A stretch of DNA of 64,000 bases from Christensenella massiliensis (GTDB lineage: Bacteria; Bacillota; Clostridia; Christensenellales; Christensenellaceae): NCBI GenBank assembly GCA_900155415.1, contig LT700187.1, positions 2,480,001 to 2,544,000 on the forward strand. The letters are read 5' to 3'. The notes under the pieces are model-generated. The model saw nothing but the letters and a program-made list of their open reading frames with translations. It did not search any database and had not been told where the DNA came from. The translations under genes and the position numbers were made by a program. Each line of letters opens with the position of its first letter. The stretch's first letter is position 1. Of the stretch, positions 2,672-7,999 are shown piece by piece.

Positions 2672-3289
2672 ATGAACGAATATCAGGATCTGATCGACCT
2701 GCTGAACAGCAAGCGGTTCCATGCCGAATTTTTTGAAGATGCAAGTTCTGCAAAAAAACGCGTAATAGAGCTTATCGCCGATGCTGCGTCCGTCGGGATC
2801 GGCGGAAGCCAGACCATTATGGACACCGGACTTTTTGACGATATCGTTTCTACCGGAAAAACGGTTTATTCCGCAGTTCTTGAGCAGCAGAAGGAAAAGC
2901 CCGATAAAATGGCCGCATGGAAAAACGCTATGAGCGCGGACGTCTATCTTACATCCACCAACGCCCTTACCCGCGGCGGCGATCTCATCAATATCGATGG
3001 AAACGGCAACCGGGTGGCAGCCATGTTTTTCGGGCCGGATACCGTGATCGTATTATGCGGCGTCAACAAGATCGCAGGCAGTCCGCACGACGCGATTGAC
3101 CGGATCAAAAAGACGGCCTGTCCGCAGAATGCGCGGAGACTGAATCTCCCTACACCATGTGCCGTTGAGGGCGTATGCCGTGATTGCAGCCTGCCTGAAC
3201 GCATGTGTAATGTGACTGTGCGGCTTCAATATCCGCCGCGCGGAAAAGAAATCTATATTCTGCTCGTCAACGAAGCCTTAGGCTTTTAA
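2672..3289 (+). CDS. LUD-domain protein (LutC/YkgG-like, lactate-utilization family)
   Basis: A 205-residue single-domain protein of the LUD (formerly DUF162) family. The N-terminal part with ASSAKKRVIELI and the glycine-rich VGIGGSQTIMDTGLF are typical, as is the central NALTRGGDLINIDGNGNRVAAMFFGP segment, which is only paraphrased here by its key GGD and GNR residues. A cysteine-containing tail (CxxCSLPERMC) resembles clostridial stand-alone LUD proteins. In LutABC systems the relative acts in lactate oxidation, but no lutA or lutB is nearby, so the substrate is unknown. It is transcribed divergently from lepA; TATAAT at 2621-2626 may be its -10 box. It has a good RBS (GAGGGAGAG). Confidence 0.85.
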   Translation: MNEYQDLIDLLNSKRFHAEFFEDASSAKKRVIELIADAASVGIGGSQTIMDTGLFDDIVSTGKTVYSAVLEQQKEKPDKMAAWKNAMSADVYLTSTNALTRGGDLINIDGNGNRVAAMFFGPDTVIVLCGVNKIAGSPHDAIDRIKKTACPQNARRLNLPTPCAVEGVCRDCSLPERMCNVTVRLQYPPRGKEIYILLVNEALGF

Positions 3290-3360
3290 ACAACGCAGTA
3301 CCTTATAAAATACGCGTCCCGTAAATATTCGGGCCGCATCAAGCACGAGGAGGCACTCTC

Positions 3361-5082
3361 ATGACTTACCGGGAAACCTATGAAATTTGGAAAAATGCCC
3401 TAAAGGATACGGAATATGCGTCCGATCTGGACCGTATTGCAGATGACGAAGACCTGCTTCAGGATTCTTTTTATAAAGAAATGGAATTCGGCACCGCCGG
3501 GATGCGCGGCATCATCGGCATGGGCACAAACCGCATGAATGTATTTACGGTAAAGCGCGCTACCCAAGCGCTTGCCAACAATATCCTTGCACACGGCGAT
3601 CCTGTTGCCGGCGTTGCCGTCGCCTACGACACGCGTAAAAACAGCGACCTGTTTGCGCGCGAAACGGCAGGCGTTTTGTGTGCGAACGGTATCAATGTGT
3701 TTATGTATGACACGCCGCACAGCGTTCCCCAGCTTTCCTTTACGATCCTTGAGCTGAAAACGACGTCGGGGGTTGTCATCACAGCAAGCCATAATCCGCC
3801 CGAATATAACGGCTATAAAGTATATGGCAAGGACGGCGGACAGTGTCCCGTTGCGGATTCCGACCGCATCACGGAATACATTTCCCAAATAGACGACATG
3901 TTCCACATTGAATCCATGCCTCTTGATGAAGCAGAACGGAACGGGCTCTTGACCTATATCGGCCATGAGCTTGATGAGATCTATTTCAGCAAGGTAGAAG
4001 CGCTTTGTATCCACCCTGAGATCATGAAGCAGCAGGCGGATAAGCTGAATATTGTATACACGCCCCTCCACGGTACCGGAAACGTTCCCGTACGCCGCGT
4101 TCTCAAAGATCTCGGTATTCGCCGGCTGCACGTCGTTCCCGAGCAGGAACACCCCGATCCGGCATTTCCGACCGTCAAGGCGCCTAATCCGGAGGAAAGG
4201 CAAAGCTTCGATCTCGCAGTAGAGTTAGCAAACCGCGAAAACGCCAACCTGATCCTTGCGACGGATCCGGACAGCGACCGCCTCGGCGTTGCGGTCCGTA
4301 ATCCTGCGCATGAGTTCGTCATTTTGACCGGCAATCAAATCGGCTGCCTGCTTATGGATTATGTGCTGTCCCAAAAGCAAAGCACCTTTGTGGGCGACGA
4401 ATTTGTTGTAAAATCGATCGTCACCAGCGATATGGTCGATGTGATCGCCGGCCATTACGGTGTGGAGCTTCGCAGCGTATTCACCGGCTTTAAATTCATT
4501 GCAGAGCAGATCAAGCTGTCTGAACAGACCGGAAAAGGAAAATTCATCTTTGGTTTCGAAGAAAGCTATGGCTATTTGCAGGGAGCGTTTGTGCGTGATA
4601 AAGACGCGGTACAGGCGGCGATGATGATCGCCGAAGCCGCCTGTTGGTATCATTCCATGGGCCGGACTCTTTATGACGTCCTCGTCGGCCTGTATGAAAA
4701 GTACGGTTGGTTTGAAGACCTTGTCCTCTCGAAAACGCTCTATGGAAAGGAAGGGATCGAAAAGATCCAGAATGCCGTGCGCACTTTGCGTGAGAGCTAT
4801 CCCGGCCATATCGGCGCCTTCAAAGTGCTTGCGGTCCGCGATTATCTGAAGCAGGAGCGGCTCGATATGCTGACCGGAAAGACGGAGCCGATCGATATGG
4901 AGCGCTCCAACGTCCTCTACTTTGAACTTGAAGGCGGACGCTTCATTATTCGTCCTTCCGGTACGGAACCTAAATTGAAATCTTATCTTTCCGCCTCCGC
5001 TGCCGAAAAAACAGAAGCAGACTCGAAGCTTGCGCAGTTAAAAACTGCGGCGTCAGCGCTGATCGATCAACTTACAAAATAA
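3361..5082 (+). CDS. pgcA: Alpha-phosphoglucomutase/phosphomannomutase (PgcA type)
   Basis: A 573-residue phosphohexomutase, the usual length of the PgcA subfamily. It interconverts glucose-1-phosphate and glucose-6-phosphate through a phosphoserine. The catalytic loop TASHNP is at residues 141-146 (Ser143), the metal loop is DPDSDR, the sugar-binding loop is GFEESYGY, and the C-terminal phosphate-binding loop is RPSGTEPK. All four active-site regions are intact. GAGGAGG lies just before the ATG. The protein supplies UDP-glucose and glycogen precursors in related bacteria; which hexose it prefers cannot be read from the sequence. The small Dabb gene follows after 12 bases and is probably co-transcribed. 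Confidence 0.95.
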   Translation: MTYRETYEIWKNALKDTEYASDLDRIADDEDLLQDSFYKEMEFGTAGMRGIIGMGTNRMNVFTVKRATQALANNILAHGDPVAGVAVAYDTRKNSDLFARETAGVLCANGINVFMYDTPHSVPQLSFTILELKTTSGVVITASHNPPEYNGYKVYGKDGGQCPVADSDRITEYISQIDDMFHIESMPLDEAERNGLLTYIGHELDEIYFSKVEALCIHPEIMKQQADKLNIVYTPLHGTGNVPVRRVLKDLGIRRLHVVPEQEHPDPAFPTVKAPNPEERQSFDLAVELANRENANLILATDPDSDRLGVAVRNPAHEFVILTGNQIGCLLMDYVLSQKQSTFVGDEFVVKSIVTSDMVDVIAGHYGVELRSVFTGFKFIAEQIKLSEQTGKGKFIFGFEESYGYLQGAFVRDKDAVQAAMMIAEAACWYHSMGRTLYDVLVGLYEKYGWFEDLVLSKTLYGKEGIEKIQNAVRTLRESYPGHIGAFKVLAVRDYLKQERLDMLTGKTEPIDMERSNVLYFELEGGRFIIRPSGTEPKLKSYLSASAAEKTEADSKLAQLKTAASALIDQLTK

Positions 5083-5094
5083 AGGAGAAAGAAT

Positions 5095-5397
5095 ATGGAA
5101 GCTGCAATCAGACATATGGTAGTATTTAATCTGAAATATGATAAGGACGATCCCCGCGCAAAGGATTTTATTGCTACTGCCAAAAAAGTTTTCGCGGGTA
5201 TCCCTTTTGCGCAGAATGTCATGCAATGCTGGGAGGTAAGCCCTAAAAATGGTTATACCTATGGCTTTTCTTTTGATTTCATGAAACCTGAGGATTACGA
5301 AAGCTACAATAATCATCCGGAGCACTGTAAATTTGTGGAGGAACGGTGGAATACCGAAGTAACGGATTTCATGGAGATCGACTTTAAGGAGATATAA
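5095..5397 (+). CDS. Dabb (stress-responsive alpha/beta barrel) domain protein
   Basis: A 100-residue protein starting with IRHMVVFNLK and containing the YxFSFDFxxPEDYESYNNHPEH segment shared by Dabb proteins, a dimeric ferredoxin-like fold. The conserved HxPEH motif is present. The family's biochemical role is mostly unknown outside a few polyketide cyclases. It follows pgcA by 12 bases with AAAGGAGAAAG before the ATG and ends just before a strong terminator, so it is the last gene of the pgcA unit. Confidence 0.85.
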   Translation: MEAAIRHMVVFNLKYDKDDPRAKDFIATAKKVFAGIPFAQNVMQCWEVSPKNGYTYGFSFDFMKPEDYESYNNHPEHCKFVEERWNTEVTDFMEIDFKEI

Positions 5398-5401
5398 AAA
5401 T

Positions 5402-5440
5402 AAAAGGCAGCCAGTCCTTTTGCAGGGCTGACTGCCTTTT
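5402..5440. terminator. Bidirectional terminator between Dabb gene and aldolase gene
   Basis: AAAAGGCAG (5402-5410) pairs with CTGCCTTTT (5432-5440), giving A/T tails on both sides for the two convergent genes. Confidence 0.85.
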
Positions 5441-5449
5441 GATTCTGCA

Positions 5450-6256
5450 CTATTCCATCTGTTTCAGCTTTTCTACAACTCTCCGTGCAATTCGCTCAGT
5501 CAATTCATCAAGCGCAGTAAAATACGTCTCCACCGTTCCTGACTGCGGCATAAAGTCAGTATCGTTCGTTTCCCTTGCGCTGCACAGCGGCTCCCCTCCA
5601 CAGCGGTTCCCCATATTTTCCCGCGTCTTTAGAAGCGGCTCTATTTGTTTCTCGCTTAAATAATTGGCTTTCCCCAGAATATTTTCCGCATACATCGTTA
5701 TCATAGCATAGTATTCTACAGACTCCAACCGATAGAACGCCTGCAAAAGGTCTTTCCCCCATGTGAGCGCCCCATGGTTCGAAAGCAGCACCGCATTATG
5801 CGTCGTACAAAAGGGTGCAATAGAATCCGGCACTTCCACTGTTCCGGGTGTCGCATATTTTGCTACCGGTACGCTTCCGAGAAGCACGATCGGCTCAGTG
5901 AGCAGCGGCCTATCAAGCGGCAGTCCTGCGATCGCAAATGCTGTCGCTGCCGGAGGGTGCGCATGCGTCACCGCCATGATTTCCGGATTTTCCCGATAGG
6001 CGCGAATATGCATTTTTACTTCCGAAGACGGAGCGTAGGCCCCCTGCTTCAGGACTTCCCCGTCAAGCGTCATCTCCACCAGCATATCCGCATCCATAAA
6101 TCCCTTGGATACGCCTGTCGGAGTAGTCAATATCACATTGTCTGCGATCTTACAGCTGATATTTCCATCATTAGCGGCAACAAAACCTTTTTGATACATT
6201 CGCCTGCCAATGTCAAGTATCTGTTCTTTTGCTTTCTCTGCTGATAAATATGCCAT
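5450..6256 (-). CDS. Class II (zinc) aldolase, fuculose-phosphate/methylthioribulose-phosphate aldolase family
   Basis: A 268-residue class II aldolase/adducin-family enzyme. The catalytic glutamate is in SSEVKMH (Glu79); zinc-ligand histidines are His98 and His100 (THAHPP) and His161 (SNHGA). Members split sugar-1-phosphates into dihydroxyacetone phosphate and an aldehyde. Its ATG overlaps the stop of mtnA (TAATG), so the two are translationally coupled. From that context the likely substrate is 5-methylthioribulose-1-phosphate (DHAP shunt) or 5-deoxyribulose-1-phosphate, though fuculose-1-phosphate cannot be excluded. The protein is about 50 residues longer than typical FucA at the C-terminus; the tail contains paired cysteines (NRCGGEPLC) and ends in a charged helix. 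Family is sure; substrate is inference. Confidence 0.9.
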   Translation of the reverse strand: MAYLSAEKAKEQILDIGRRMYQKGFVAANDGNISCKIADNVILTTPTGVSKGFMDADMLVEMTLDGEVLKQGAYAPSSEVKMHIRAYRENPEIMAVTHAHPPAATAFAIAGLPLDRPLLTEPIVLLGSVPVAKYATPGTVEVPDSIAPFCTTHNAVLLSNHGALTWGKDLLQAFYRLESVEYYAMITMYAENILGKANYLSEKQIEPLLKTRENMGNRCGGEPLCSARETNDTDFMPQSGTVETYFTALDELTERIARRVVEKLKQME

Positions 6257-7335
6257 TATCGTTCCGCCTTTGCTTTTTGTTCAAAAATCTCTTTCAGCGA
6301 AACATCATACGGTGGATAGGCCACGCCATATTCCGTGATGATCGCTGTGATGAATTCGGCGTCCGTAACGTCAAAGCTGGGATTATAAACCTTCACGCCC
6401 TCCGGAGCCATACGTTTTTCGTACCACATTTCCGTCACTTCTTCCGCCGGACGCAGCTCAATATGAATATCCGCTCCCGTTTTGCAGGCCATATCGATCG
6501 TCGAGGTGGGCGCGCATACATAAAACGGAATGTGAAAATGCTTAGCCGCAAGCGCTACGTATGATGTGCCAATTTTATTTGCCGCATCTCCATTGGCAGC
6601 GACACGGTCACAGCCCACAAAAACAGCGTCTACCCACCCCTGCTTCATAACGGACGGCGCCATATTATCGCAGATCAGCGTCGTATCGATACCGGCCTCC
6701 TGCAATTCAAAAGCGGTCAGCCGTGCACCCTGAAGCAGCGGGCGCGTTTCATCGCAAAATACATGAAATCCATATCCACGTTCCTGCCCAAGATACATCG
6801 GCGCCGTTGCCGTTCCATATTTAGACGTGGCAAGCTGCCCGGCATTGCAATGGGTAAGAAGCCCCATGCCCGGCTTTAACAGCTTCAGCCCGTTTTCCCC
6901 AATCGAACAGCACACACGGATATCCTCCGCTTTGATCTCATTTGCCTCCCGAAGCAGCAGACTTTTGATCTCCGGCACCGTCTTTTCCCGGTTTTCACGC
7001 ACTACACTGTCCATACGCCGGAGCGCCCACGACAGATTGACCGCCGTCGGGCGCGCAGAGTCGAGATAATCCCGCGCCTCCTCAAACCGCTTATAGAAAT
7101 CGTCAAATGTGTCCTCATCTATCTCTTTGGCCGCTAAATAAATCCCAAATGCTGCCGCTACTCCGATCGCCGGGGCTCCGCGGACTTTCAGCAGATAGAT
7201 TGCATCCCAAATGCTCTTCTGATCTTTAAGGCGCAGTATTTCCCTGCGTCCTGGAAGCTGCGTCTGGTCGATAATCAAAAGGGCGCTGTCCTGATCGTCG
7301 AGCGCCACCGTCTCCATATCAAATATCGTTGCCAT
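6256..7335 (-). CDS. mtnA: S-methyl-5-thioribose-1-phosphate isomerase (MtnA/DrdI family)
   Basis: A 359-residue protein of full family length. It carries the signature THCNAG with catalytic Cys163 and [17 protein letters not shown] with catalytic Asp243, plus the [16 protein letters not shown] block. MtnA isomerises methylthioribose-1-phosphate to methylthioribulose-1-phosphate; close homologues (DrdI) act on 5-deoxyribose-1-phosphate. The start at 7335 has AGGAGA seven bases upstream and lies 13 bases after the upstream vertex-protein gene; an in-frame ATG 10 codons earlier would overlap that gene's end. The neighbouring aldolase, rather than mtnB/mtnW/mtnC, points to a DHAP-shunt or deoxyribose-disposal route. 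No nucleosidase, phosphorylase or kinase for making the substrate is in the window. Confidence 0.94.
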
Positions 7336-7348
7336 GATTTCTCCTGAA

Positions 7349-7927
7349 CTATTTTTTTCTTTCACTTCTATAACCTACGCGTGAATATCCTGTTTTTTTC
7401 TGCTTCGTTCCTTCTGCTGTCTCTGTTTTCTGCGCCGATGCATCCACCGGCTCAAAATCTGTCGTCAAGTACTTTGCATATTCCTCATAGGGAACGGCGT
7501 TGGTATTTTGTTTGGCCGCCTCATCGGCTGACAATCGGTCCAGCTCCTGATGAAGCGCCTTGAATTCAGCCGTAAGGCTCGATACTGGGTCAAATTCCTC
7601 CAAAGAGTCCTGCGGCGGAACGGGCTCCGGTTCTTCTATTATGTGCTCAACGGTTTGCCCGAACCTTTCTTCACCATTCCATATCAGACTTTCCGGGATT
7701 GCAACGACCATATTGATCGCAGTGTCGCCCTGCTGGAATGTGCATACTGCCGCACATACGACAAGCTGCCCCTCCTGCGCCCCCAGCTTATCCGCCACTA
7801 AAAACGGCTTCCCGGCTTCCTGCATAGTCTCCATATCGACCGGAACCGCGACAAGAAGCTCCGCTCCATATAGCTCATCGGATTTCGTGATGCTCTTTGC
7901 ATTTCCAATAATTTTGGCTAACTGCAT
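7349..7927 (-). CDS. EutN/CcmL-type microcompartment vertex protein with C-terminal extension
   Basis: Residues 1-83 match the EutN/CcmL pentamer family: the start [13 protein letters not shown], the [13 protein letters not shown] strand, [18 protein letters not shown] with the conserved GAxxGxxV turn, and a final VVAIPES strand. This family caps the vertices of bacterial microcompartment shells. Beyond the usual end (about 90 residues) lies an extra 100-residue tail: acidic and proline-rich at 98-112, a predicted amphipathic helix near 115-137, then a basic end (KQKK, RSERKK). The start at 7927 is chosen because GGGAGG precedes it and a TTGACA-17-TAATAT promoter lies just upstream. It heads an operon with mtnA and the aldolase. 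No BMC-H or BMC-T shell gene is visible in the window, so whether it builds a shell is unknown. Confidence 0.8.
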
Positions 7928-7970
7928 TCCGCACGCCTCCCATTCGCTAAAATGTTTTCTTCCGCTTTTC

Positions 7971-7999
7971 ATATTAATCGTTGCCGCCGCTAATGTCAA
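7971..7999 (-). promoter_or_regulatory. Promoter of the vertex protein-mtnA-aldolase operon
   Basis: TTGACA (7994-7999) and TAATAT (7971-7976), 17 bases apart on the minus strand, sit about 45 bases upstream of the chosen start and downstream of the phoR terminator, so the three genes form an independent unit. Confidence 0.7.

Follow-up and report, generated by a model that had tools for sequence, protein, structure and literature searches.

The three-gene unit described here, in which the gene of an extended EutN/CcmL homologue (EutNx) precedes mtnA and a class II aldolase gene, is best read, with fair but modest confidence, as a descendant, now without a shell, of a DHAP-shunt microcompartment, with the former vertex protein EutNx having kept a selected role. 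The unit lies within a window of 64,000 nucleotides, the whole stretch of DNA that was analysed, which corresponds to bases 2480001-2544000 of a one-contig Christensenella genome (G000; 2,560,186 bases, 99.94% complete). If the reading is true, the unit would show, in nature, a shell protein that has outlived its organelle, and vertex-protein functions would become testable without a shell. New relative to the first reading of this DNA are the link to seven MtnK/MtnA/aldolase microcompartment loci and the recognition of EutNx as a derived, extended variant. The following features were located in the window:

7971..7999, minus strand: promoter-like TTGACA-17-TAATAT upstream of eutNx (pattern scan)
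7349..7927, minus strand: eutNx, from ATG 7927 to a stop at 7349, 192 aa (PF03319, congener alignment, dN/dS)
6256..7335, minus strand: mtnA, methylthioribose-1-phosphate isomerase family, from ATG 7335 to a stop at 6256 (TIGR00512)
5450..6256, minus strand: class II aldolase, core at about residues 1-216, from ATG 6256 to a stop at 5450 (PF00596, 166 bits)
5453..5533, minus strand: C-terminal tail of the aldolase, about residues 242-268, a putative encapsulation-peptide-like (EP-like) amphipathic stretch past a linker (alignment, and tails by eye)
5412..5438, plus strand: terminator-like hairpins between the aldolase gene and the convergent Dabb gene (hairpin scan)

The original prediction of an EutN/CcmL homologue heading an operon with mtnA and a class II aldolase was borne out in its positions, in the 13-base spacing between eutNx and mtnA, and in the TAATG overlap, in which the mtnA TAA and the aldolase ATG share one base. 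It had also placed the operon under one promoter; a TTGACA-17-TAATAT site does exist, but sites of this type were no commoner than chance in the region (5 versus 3.0, sd 1.5, in shuffles), so the site is no evidence by itself. Terminator-like hairpins numbered 2, versus 2.7 expected from shuffles. A PF03319 search of the N-terminal region of EutNx, set beforehand as the refuting test, gave a match of 43.4 bits (cut-off 25) at residues 1-60 from ATG 7927, which covered only positions 1-59 of the 83 in the profile; the protein is laid out as an EutN/CcmL domain at about residues 1-88 followed by a C-terminal extension some 104 residues long. MtnA scored 419.3 bits with TIGR00512 (cut-off 279) and 279.6 bits with PF01008, and its closest solved structure was 2yrf, named methylthioribose-1-phosphate isomerase (344.6 bits). 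The best solved relatives of the aldolase were 6voq and 6vop (aldolase) and 6btd (fuculose phosphate aldolase). CNAG and GCDR motifs were present in MtnA and HAH in the aldolase, and these are presumably the catalytic motifs. On the plus strand, the convergent neighbours at window positions 2672-5397 encode a LUD-domain protein, a phosphoglucomutase/phosphomannomutase, and a Dabb-domain protein, and all three are also present in Christensenella intestinihominis (G002).

The wider ancestry of the unit was examined with an aldolase search, which found matches at E <1e-40 in 44 of the 396 genomes of the order. Seventeen aldolase surroundings were inspected, and seven (G310, G093, G346, G073, G085, G120, and G254) were picked since they held the aldolase and an EutN on one contig. 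All seven loci (L099-L105) also contained MtnK, MtnA, PduL, PduP, and BMC-H within about 20 kb; EutN beside the aldolase was the selection criterion, and these five were not selected for. Genes for a pyridine-nucleotide oxidoreductase, a CoA-transferase subunit, and ABC transporters were present within the same distance. Judged by gene content, the seven loci likely encode a putative DHAP-shunt metabolosome for methylthioribose or 5-deoxyribose, which would probably recycle waste sugars of S-adenosylmethionine, and they offer MtnK-MtnA-aldolase as a concrete signature set for a metabolosome that would use either sugar. Methylthioribose excretion by E. coli is on record in the sections of PMC6079011 covered here.

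Less complete arrangements were found elsewhere. A transporter, MtnK, MtnA, the aldolase, and a BMC-H gene lie together in G005, separate from its main shell locus; the MtnK proteins of G085 and G005, the two tested, scored above the MTRK cut-off. MtnA, the aldolase, and the oxidoreductase are kept in G004. MtnA adjoins the aldolase with no EutN in G017, G006, and G157. G016 has a fragment of mtnA next to its aldolase, with no shell gene seen on the contig end examined. The aldolases of G108, G371, G107, and G082 have GRM-like surroundings; related aldolases are thus present in loci of GRM-like appearance. Taken together, these arrangements read as a series that runs from one integrated locus through a satellite to the unit without a shell seen in the window. 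When the class was searched with the G085 aldolase, matches at E <1e-60 were obtained in 67 of 391 genomes, and nine surroundings were inspected; MtnA stood beside the aldolase in G526, G588, G415, and G422, with MtnK too in the first two, and PF03319 had no match in these four genomes. Two loci from genomes without EutN, L160 (6862-9990) and L161 (7087-10206), carry mtnK-mtnA-aldolase operons in which the aldolase has an EP-like tail, and the genes upstream of them resemble, by eye only, those of cobalamin biosynthesis.

An MtnA-type isomerase likewise stands next to a class II aldolase in the published drd and DHAP-shunt clusters (DrdK-DrdI-DrdA; MtnK-MtnA-Ald2), as given in the portions of PMC6079011 and PMC10986504 covered; the window unit differs in being headed by EutN and in having no adjoining kinase or phosphorylase. 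The word 'microcompartment' has 0 occurrences in PMC10986504. According to the covered part of Sutter 2021 (PMC8217296), a PF00596 aldolase is found in PVM, GRM5, and ACI loci, with a C-terminal encapsulation peptide (EP) in ACI. As far as the survey passages covered go, the GRM5, PVM, and ACI text concerns fuculose and rhamnulose phosphates, SPU has a DeoC-type aldolase, and none of these was seen with MtnK and MtnA; 'thioribose' has 0 occurrences in the main text of Axen 2014 or Sutter 2021. A search of open-access PMC for microcompartment with 5-deoxyribose returned no paper, and one for microcompartment with methylthioribose returned only a glucan-enzyme review and a paper on Acetobacterium woodii. 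The latter, in the sections covered, describes a methylthioribose kinase gene directly downstream of pdu cluster 1, which its authors regard as unrelated to microcompartment function (PMC7593272); the likeness to the present loci is a methylthioribose kinase gene adjoining microcompartment genes. Within the open-access PMC literature and the survey passages covered, a microcompartment type with MtnK, MtnA, and aldolase was thus not met.

Trees were built for MtnA (20 rows, leaving out the G016 MtnA as too short), the aldolase (25 rows), and EutN (52 rows, 88 columns). Rows of the Christensenella family grouped with the seven loci at 93/89 in the MtnA tree and 87/88 in the aldolase tree, neither starred. 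The label 'genome with EutN' required 3 changes on each of these trees versus 6.6 and 8.7 in shuffles, with 0 of 500 shuffles as low; this label came from a profile built on EutNx, which missed ordinary EutN in the GRM-like G108, G371, and G107 and left G704 and G404 uncovered, and on the aldolase tree five GRM-like rows (G107 not included) formed a separate label though EutN is present in at least four of the genomes concerned. MtnA and the aldolase of the window are, by these trees, kin to those of the microcompartment loci. In the EutN tree, the EutNx clade (100/100) joined, at 98/97, the second EutN of G005 and those from five of the seven loci; its stem is long (1.43), so this position may be an artefact, and an origin of EutNx beside the seven loci appears less sure.

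No match to PF00936 (BMC-H/BMC-T) was found in the whole window genome, with matches obtained in the control genomes of E. coli and Synechococcus, and EutNx was the sole PF03319 match, with no second EutN. The remark that no BMC-H or BMC-T gene adjoins the operon therefore extends to the entire genome. The original prediction had offered two readings, a minimal satellite microcompartment locus or an EutN pentamer outside a shell; the first is wrong for the window genome, since there is no main locus, and the second is a live option. Among 18 family genomes, PF00936 was found in 6, with 4-8 matches each, namely the five congeners (C. hongkongensis, G001; C. intestinihominis, G002; and G003-G005) and G016 of another genus. 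Because all five congeners searched carry shell genes, the simplest reading is probably that the shell was lost in the window species. The best PduP matches had 66-73% identity in G001, G004, G005, and G016; G000, G002, and G003 had no close PduP homologue, their best matches being about 31% identical. The shell locus of G003 (L028, 2524-15929), which thus lies in a genome with no close PduP homologue found, holds, with names assigned by eye, two class II aldolases, an FGGY-like kinase, an RbsABC-like transporter, and an iron alcohol dehydrogenase, and the EutN of the G002 shell locus (L029) is 92% identical to that of G003.

Conservation of gene order in relatives, which had been put forward as a check, was found as the full trio in two congeners and as eutNx-mtnA in a third. 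The order eutNx-mtnA-aldolase is kept in G002 and G003 at identities of about 69-71, 89-90, and 91%, respectively (BLAST), where the unit is preceded by genes for an ABC sugar transporter, DUF4432, BtpA, a PfkB kinase, and a TIM-barrel protein. G001 has eutNx-mtnA only, at the same chromosomal place as in the window, with neither aldolase nor Dabb between mtnA and the mutase gene. An EutNx profile gave full-length matches in 4 of the 396 genomes of the order (at least 312 bits), the next match being an ordinary EutN at 83.7 bits, and a contig scan with EutNx, based on two short patterns, found two loci, both of Christensenella. Because EutNx adjoins mtnA in all four genomes, even in G001 where the aldolase is missing, MtnA would be its likelier partner.

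Satellites with BMC-P and an aldolase away from the main locus, e.g. HO satellites, have been described (Axen 2014, PMC4207490; Sutter 2021, PMC8217296, as far as covered). The eutNx genes of G001, G002, and G003 do appear to fit this wording because BMC-H genes are found elsewhere in those genomes; the window genome differs in that no main locus was found. It is conceivable on this ground, if unlikely, that EutNx is a satellite shell part that caps or modifies another microcompartment in the congeners and recruits MtnA and the aldolase, the window genome having lost its main locus. The coexistence of EutNx with shell genes elsewhere in those three genomes favours such a role, as do the printed satellite wording, which in the parts covered permits enzymes alongside shell parts, and the resemblance of the aldolase tail to an encapsulation peptide. 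However, G004 and G005 bear shells and have no EutNx, a loop usual in EutN (below) is lost with an adjoining gap in all four EutNx, and the constraint on EutNx in a shell-less genome is left unexplained.

The yardstick for the divergence of EutNx, which belongs to this analysis itself, was a set of 20 columns, each conserved in at least 80% of 48 ordinary EutN from relatives. EutNx of the window keeps 10 of these identical, with changes at V6, V10, V11, T13, K23, G51, G61, I74, and D79 and a missing loop D; V6I, I74V, and D79E are mild. The GS[SAP][SA]R (GSSAR) loop occurs in 32 of 48 ordinary EutN versus 0 of 4 EutNx, and the gap beside the lost loop spans five residues in three EutNx and two in G001. 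On this alignment, EutNx is a derived, extended EutN variant. G000 and G003 share 88% identity over the domain, which has a dN/dS of 0.062 versus G003 (codon bootstrap 0.02-0.13, 197 of 200 replicates), 0.042 versus G002, and about 0.05 on the G000 branch (three-way estimate); ordinary EutN gave 0.050 between the shell-bearing G002 and G003, all ratios being rough, with dS >1 or undefined in many comparisons. The domain is thus constrained like ordinary EutN of shell-bearing congeners. Values for the extension (residues 89-165) were 0.12-0.20 among G000, G002, and G003, and those for MtnA and the aldolase core were about 0.03 and 0.025. A better-kept extension than domain, considered for G001 versus G000, was rejected: identity is 58% over residues 89-165 yet 51% over the extension as a whole, no different from the 51% of the domain, gaps omitted. 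AlphaFold models were too poor to use, with mean pLDDT values of 42.5 for EutNx (3-row alignment) and 29.7 for the aldolase (2-row alignment).

These measurements bear on whether the trio is simply an ordinary DHAP-shunt pair with a passively inherited vertex gene, EutNx being without effect and disappearing after a recent loss of the shell. The absence of shell genes from the window genome versus their presence in its nearest congeners would agree with this, as would the differences at 10 of 20 conserved columns (V11, T13, K23, G51, and D79 among them) and the missing GSSAR loop, and dN/dS cannot tell very recent shell loss from kept function. We nevertheless regard it as quite unlikely: the reading frame is open and the spacing intact, domain dN/dS on the branch resembles that of ordinary EutN with shells, and, since the shell-bearing G002 and G003 show the same changes, shell loss did not precede them.

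With regard to chemistry, an MtnA-type isomerase with a class II aldolase constitutes the DHAP shunt, entered through a kinase or a phosphorylase and yielding DHAP and acetaldehyde or methylthioacetaldehyde (PMC6079011, PMC10986504, in the portions covered). This pairing is present in the window genome, and the DHAP-shunt chemistry originally suggested for it is likely. A genome search for nucleosidase, phosphorylase, and kinase genes, also proposed at the outset, returned no MtnK and no MTA/SAH nucleosidase in the window genome, the lone PF01048 protein being a PNP; this protein is of the inosine/guanosine kind (PRK08202, 338.4 bits, cut-off 218) and fell below every MTA-phosphorylase cut-off. 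Only one of the 18 family genomes (G005) matched the G085 MtnK. At about 2.02 Mb of the window contig (L126, 96-2622; G000:C1), a gene for an AhcY-type hydrolase is followed directly by one for an amidohydrolase resembling MTA/SAH/5'-deoxyadenosine deaminases, which scored below the cut-offs of all 25 models listed (335.5 of 522 bits for 5'-deoxyadenosine deaminase).

The PNP also raises the option that the substrate of the pair is ribose-1-phosphate from nucleosides, giving DHAP and glycolaldehyde, and not a 5-deoxy or methylthio sugar. The one PF01048 protein that the search returned is of the appropriate inosine/guanosine kind, and the ribulose-1-phosphate aldolase model NF053831 was among the aldolase matches, at 97.1 bits and below its cut-off of 300. 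This substrate is nonetheless improbable, given that MtnA scored above the methylthioribose-1-phosphate equivalog cut-off and below that of the ribose-1,5-bisphosphate isomerase model, and that MtnA is accompanied by MtnK in the seven homologous loci and in G005.

In the favoured reading of a shell-less DHAP-shunt descendant, MtnA would isomerise a 5-substituted ribose-1-phosphate, putatively methylthioribose- or 5-deoxyribose-1-phosphate, to the corresponding ribulose-1-phosphate, which the aldolase would cleave to DHAP and (methylthio)acetaldehyde. As MtnK was not found in the window genome, the sugar phosphate would most likely arise by a kinase-free route in which MTA or 5'-deoxyadenosine is deaminated by the product of the deaminase-like gene and phosphorolysed by the PNP; this entry would resemble a proposal for M. 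jannaschii with deaminase-and-phosphorylase entry, cited in the part of PMC6079011 covered. EutNx would be an ex-vertex protein that lost its shell and kept a selected role, most simply as a small oligomer that serves as scaffold or partner to MtnA, and perhaps to the tail of the aldolase as well, although we offer the scaffold role as a tentative guess. The fuller picture, in which MtnA and the EP-tailed aldolase are held together by EutNx oligomers and the reactive aldehyde is thereby passed on without a shell, as a step of organelle loss from an undescribed DHAP-shunt microcompartment, is possible but doubtful. Sutter 2021 (PMC8217296), in the part covered, found the number of BMC-P paralogs unexpected, only 12 pentamers being needed, and suspected an additional role.

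EP-like aldolase tails were recognised by eye in the seven loci, G000, G002-G005, and G016. They were likewise recognised in G526, G588, and G017, three of nine genomes without a PF03319 match; G157, G415, and G422 have no such tail, and that of G006 is long. The tail was rejected as proof of encapsulation or of a microcompartment history, given its presence without EutN in G526, G588, and G017. Since tails occur in genomes with no PF03319 match, the tail may serve a role without a shell, or merely persist. Its hydrophobic moment gave a mixed picture, being reached by 9, 6, 59, 165, and 217 of 1000 shuffles for G000, G003, G002, G005, and G085, respectively, and that of a control, the start of PduP, by 6 of 1000. 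For the extension of EutNx, the corresponding counts were 66 in G000, 32 in G003, and 111 in G001. An ordinary-looking EutN of G005 (L032, 9131-9649) carries a C-terminal extension with a basic tail resembling the end of EutNx, and represents a possible intermediate towards it.
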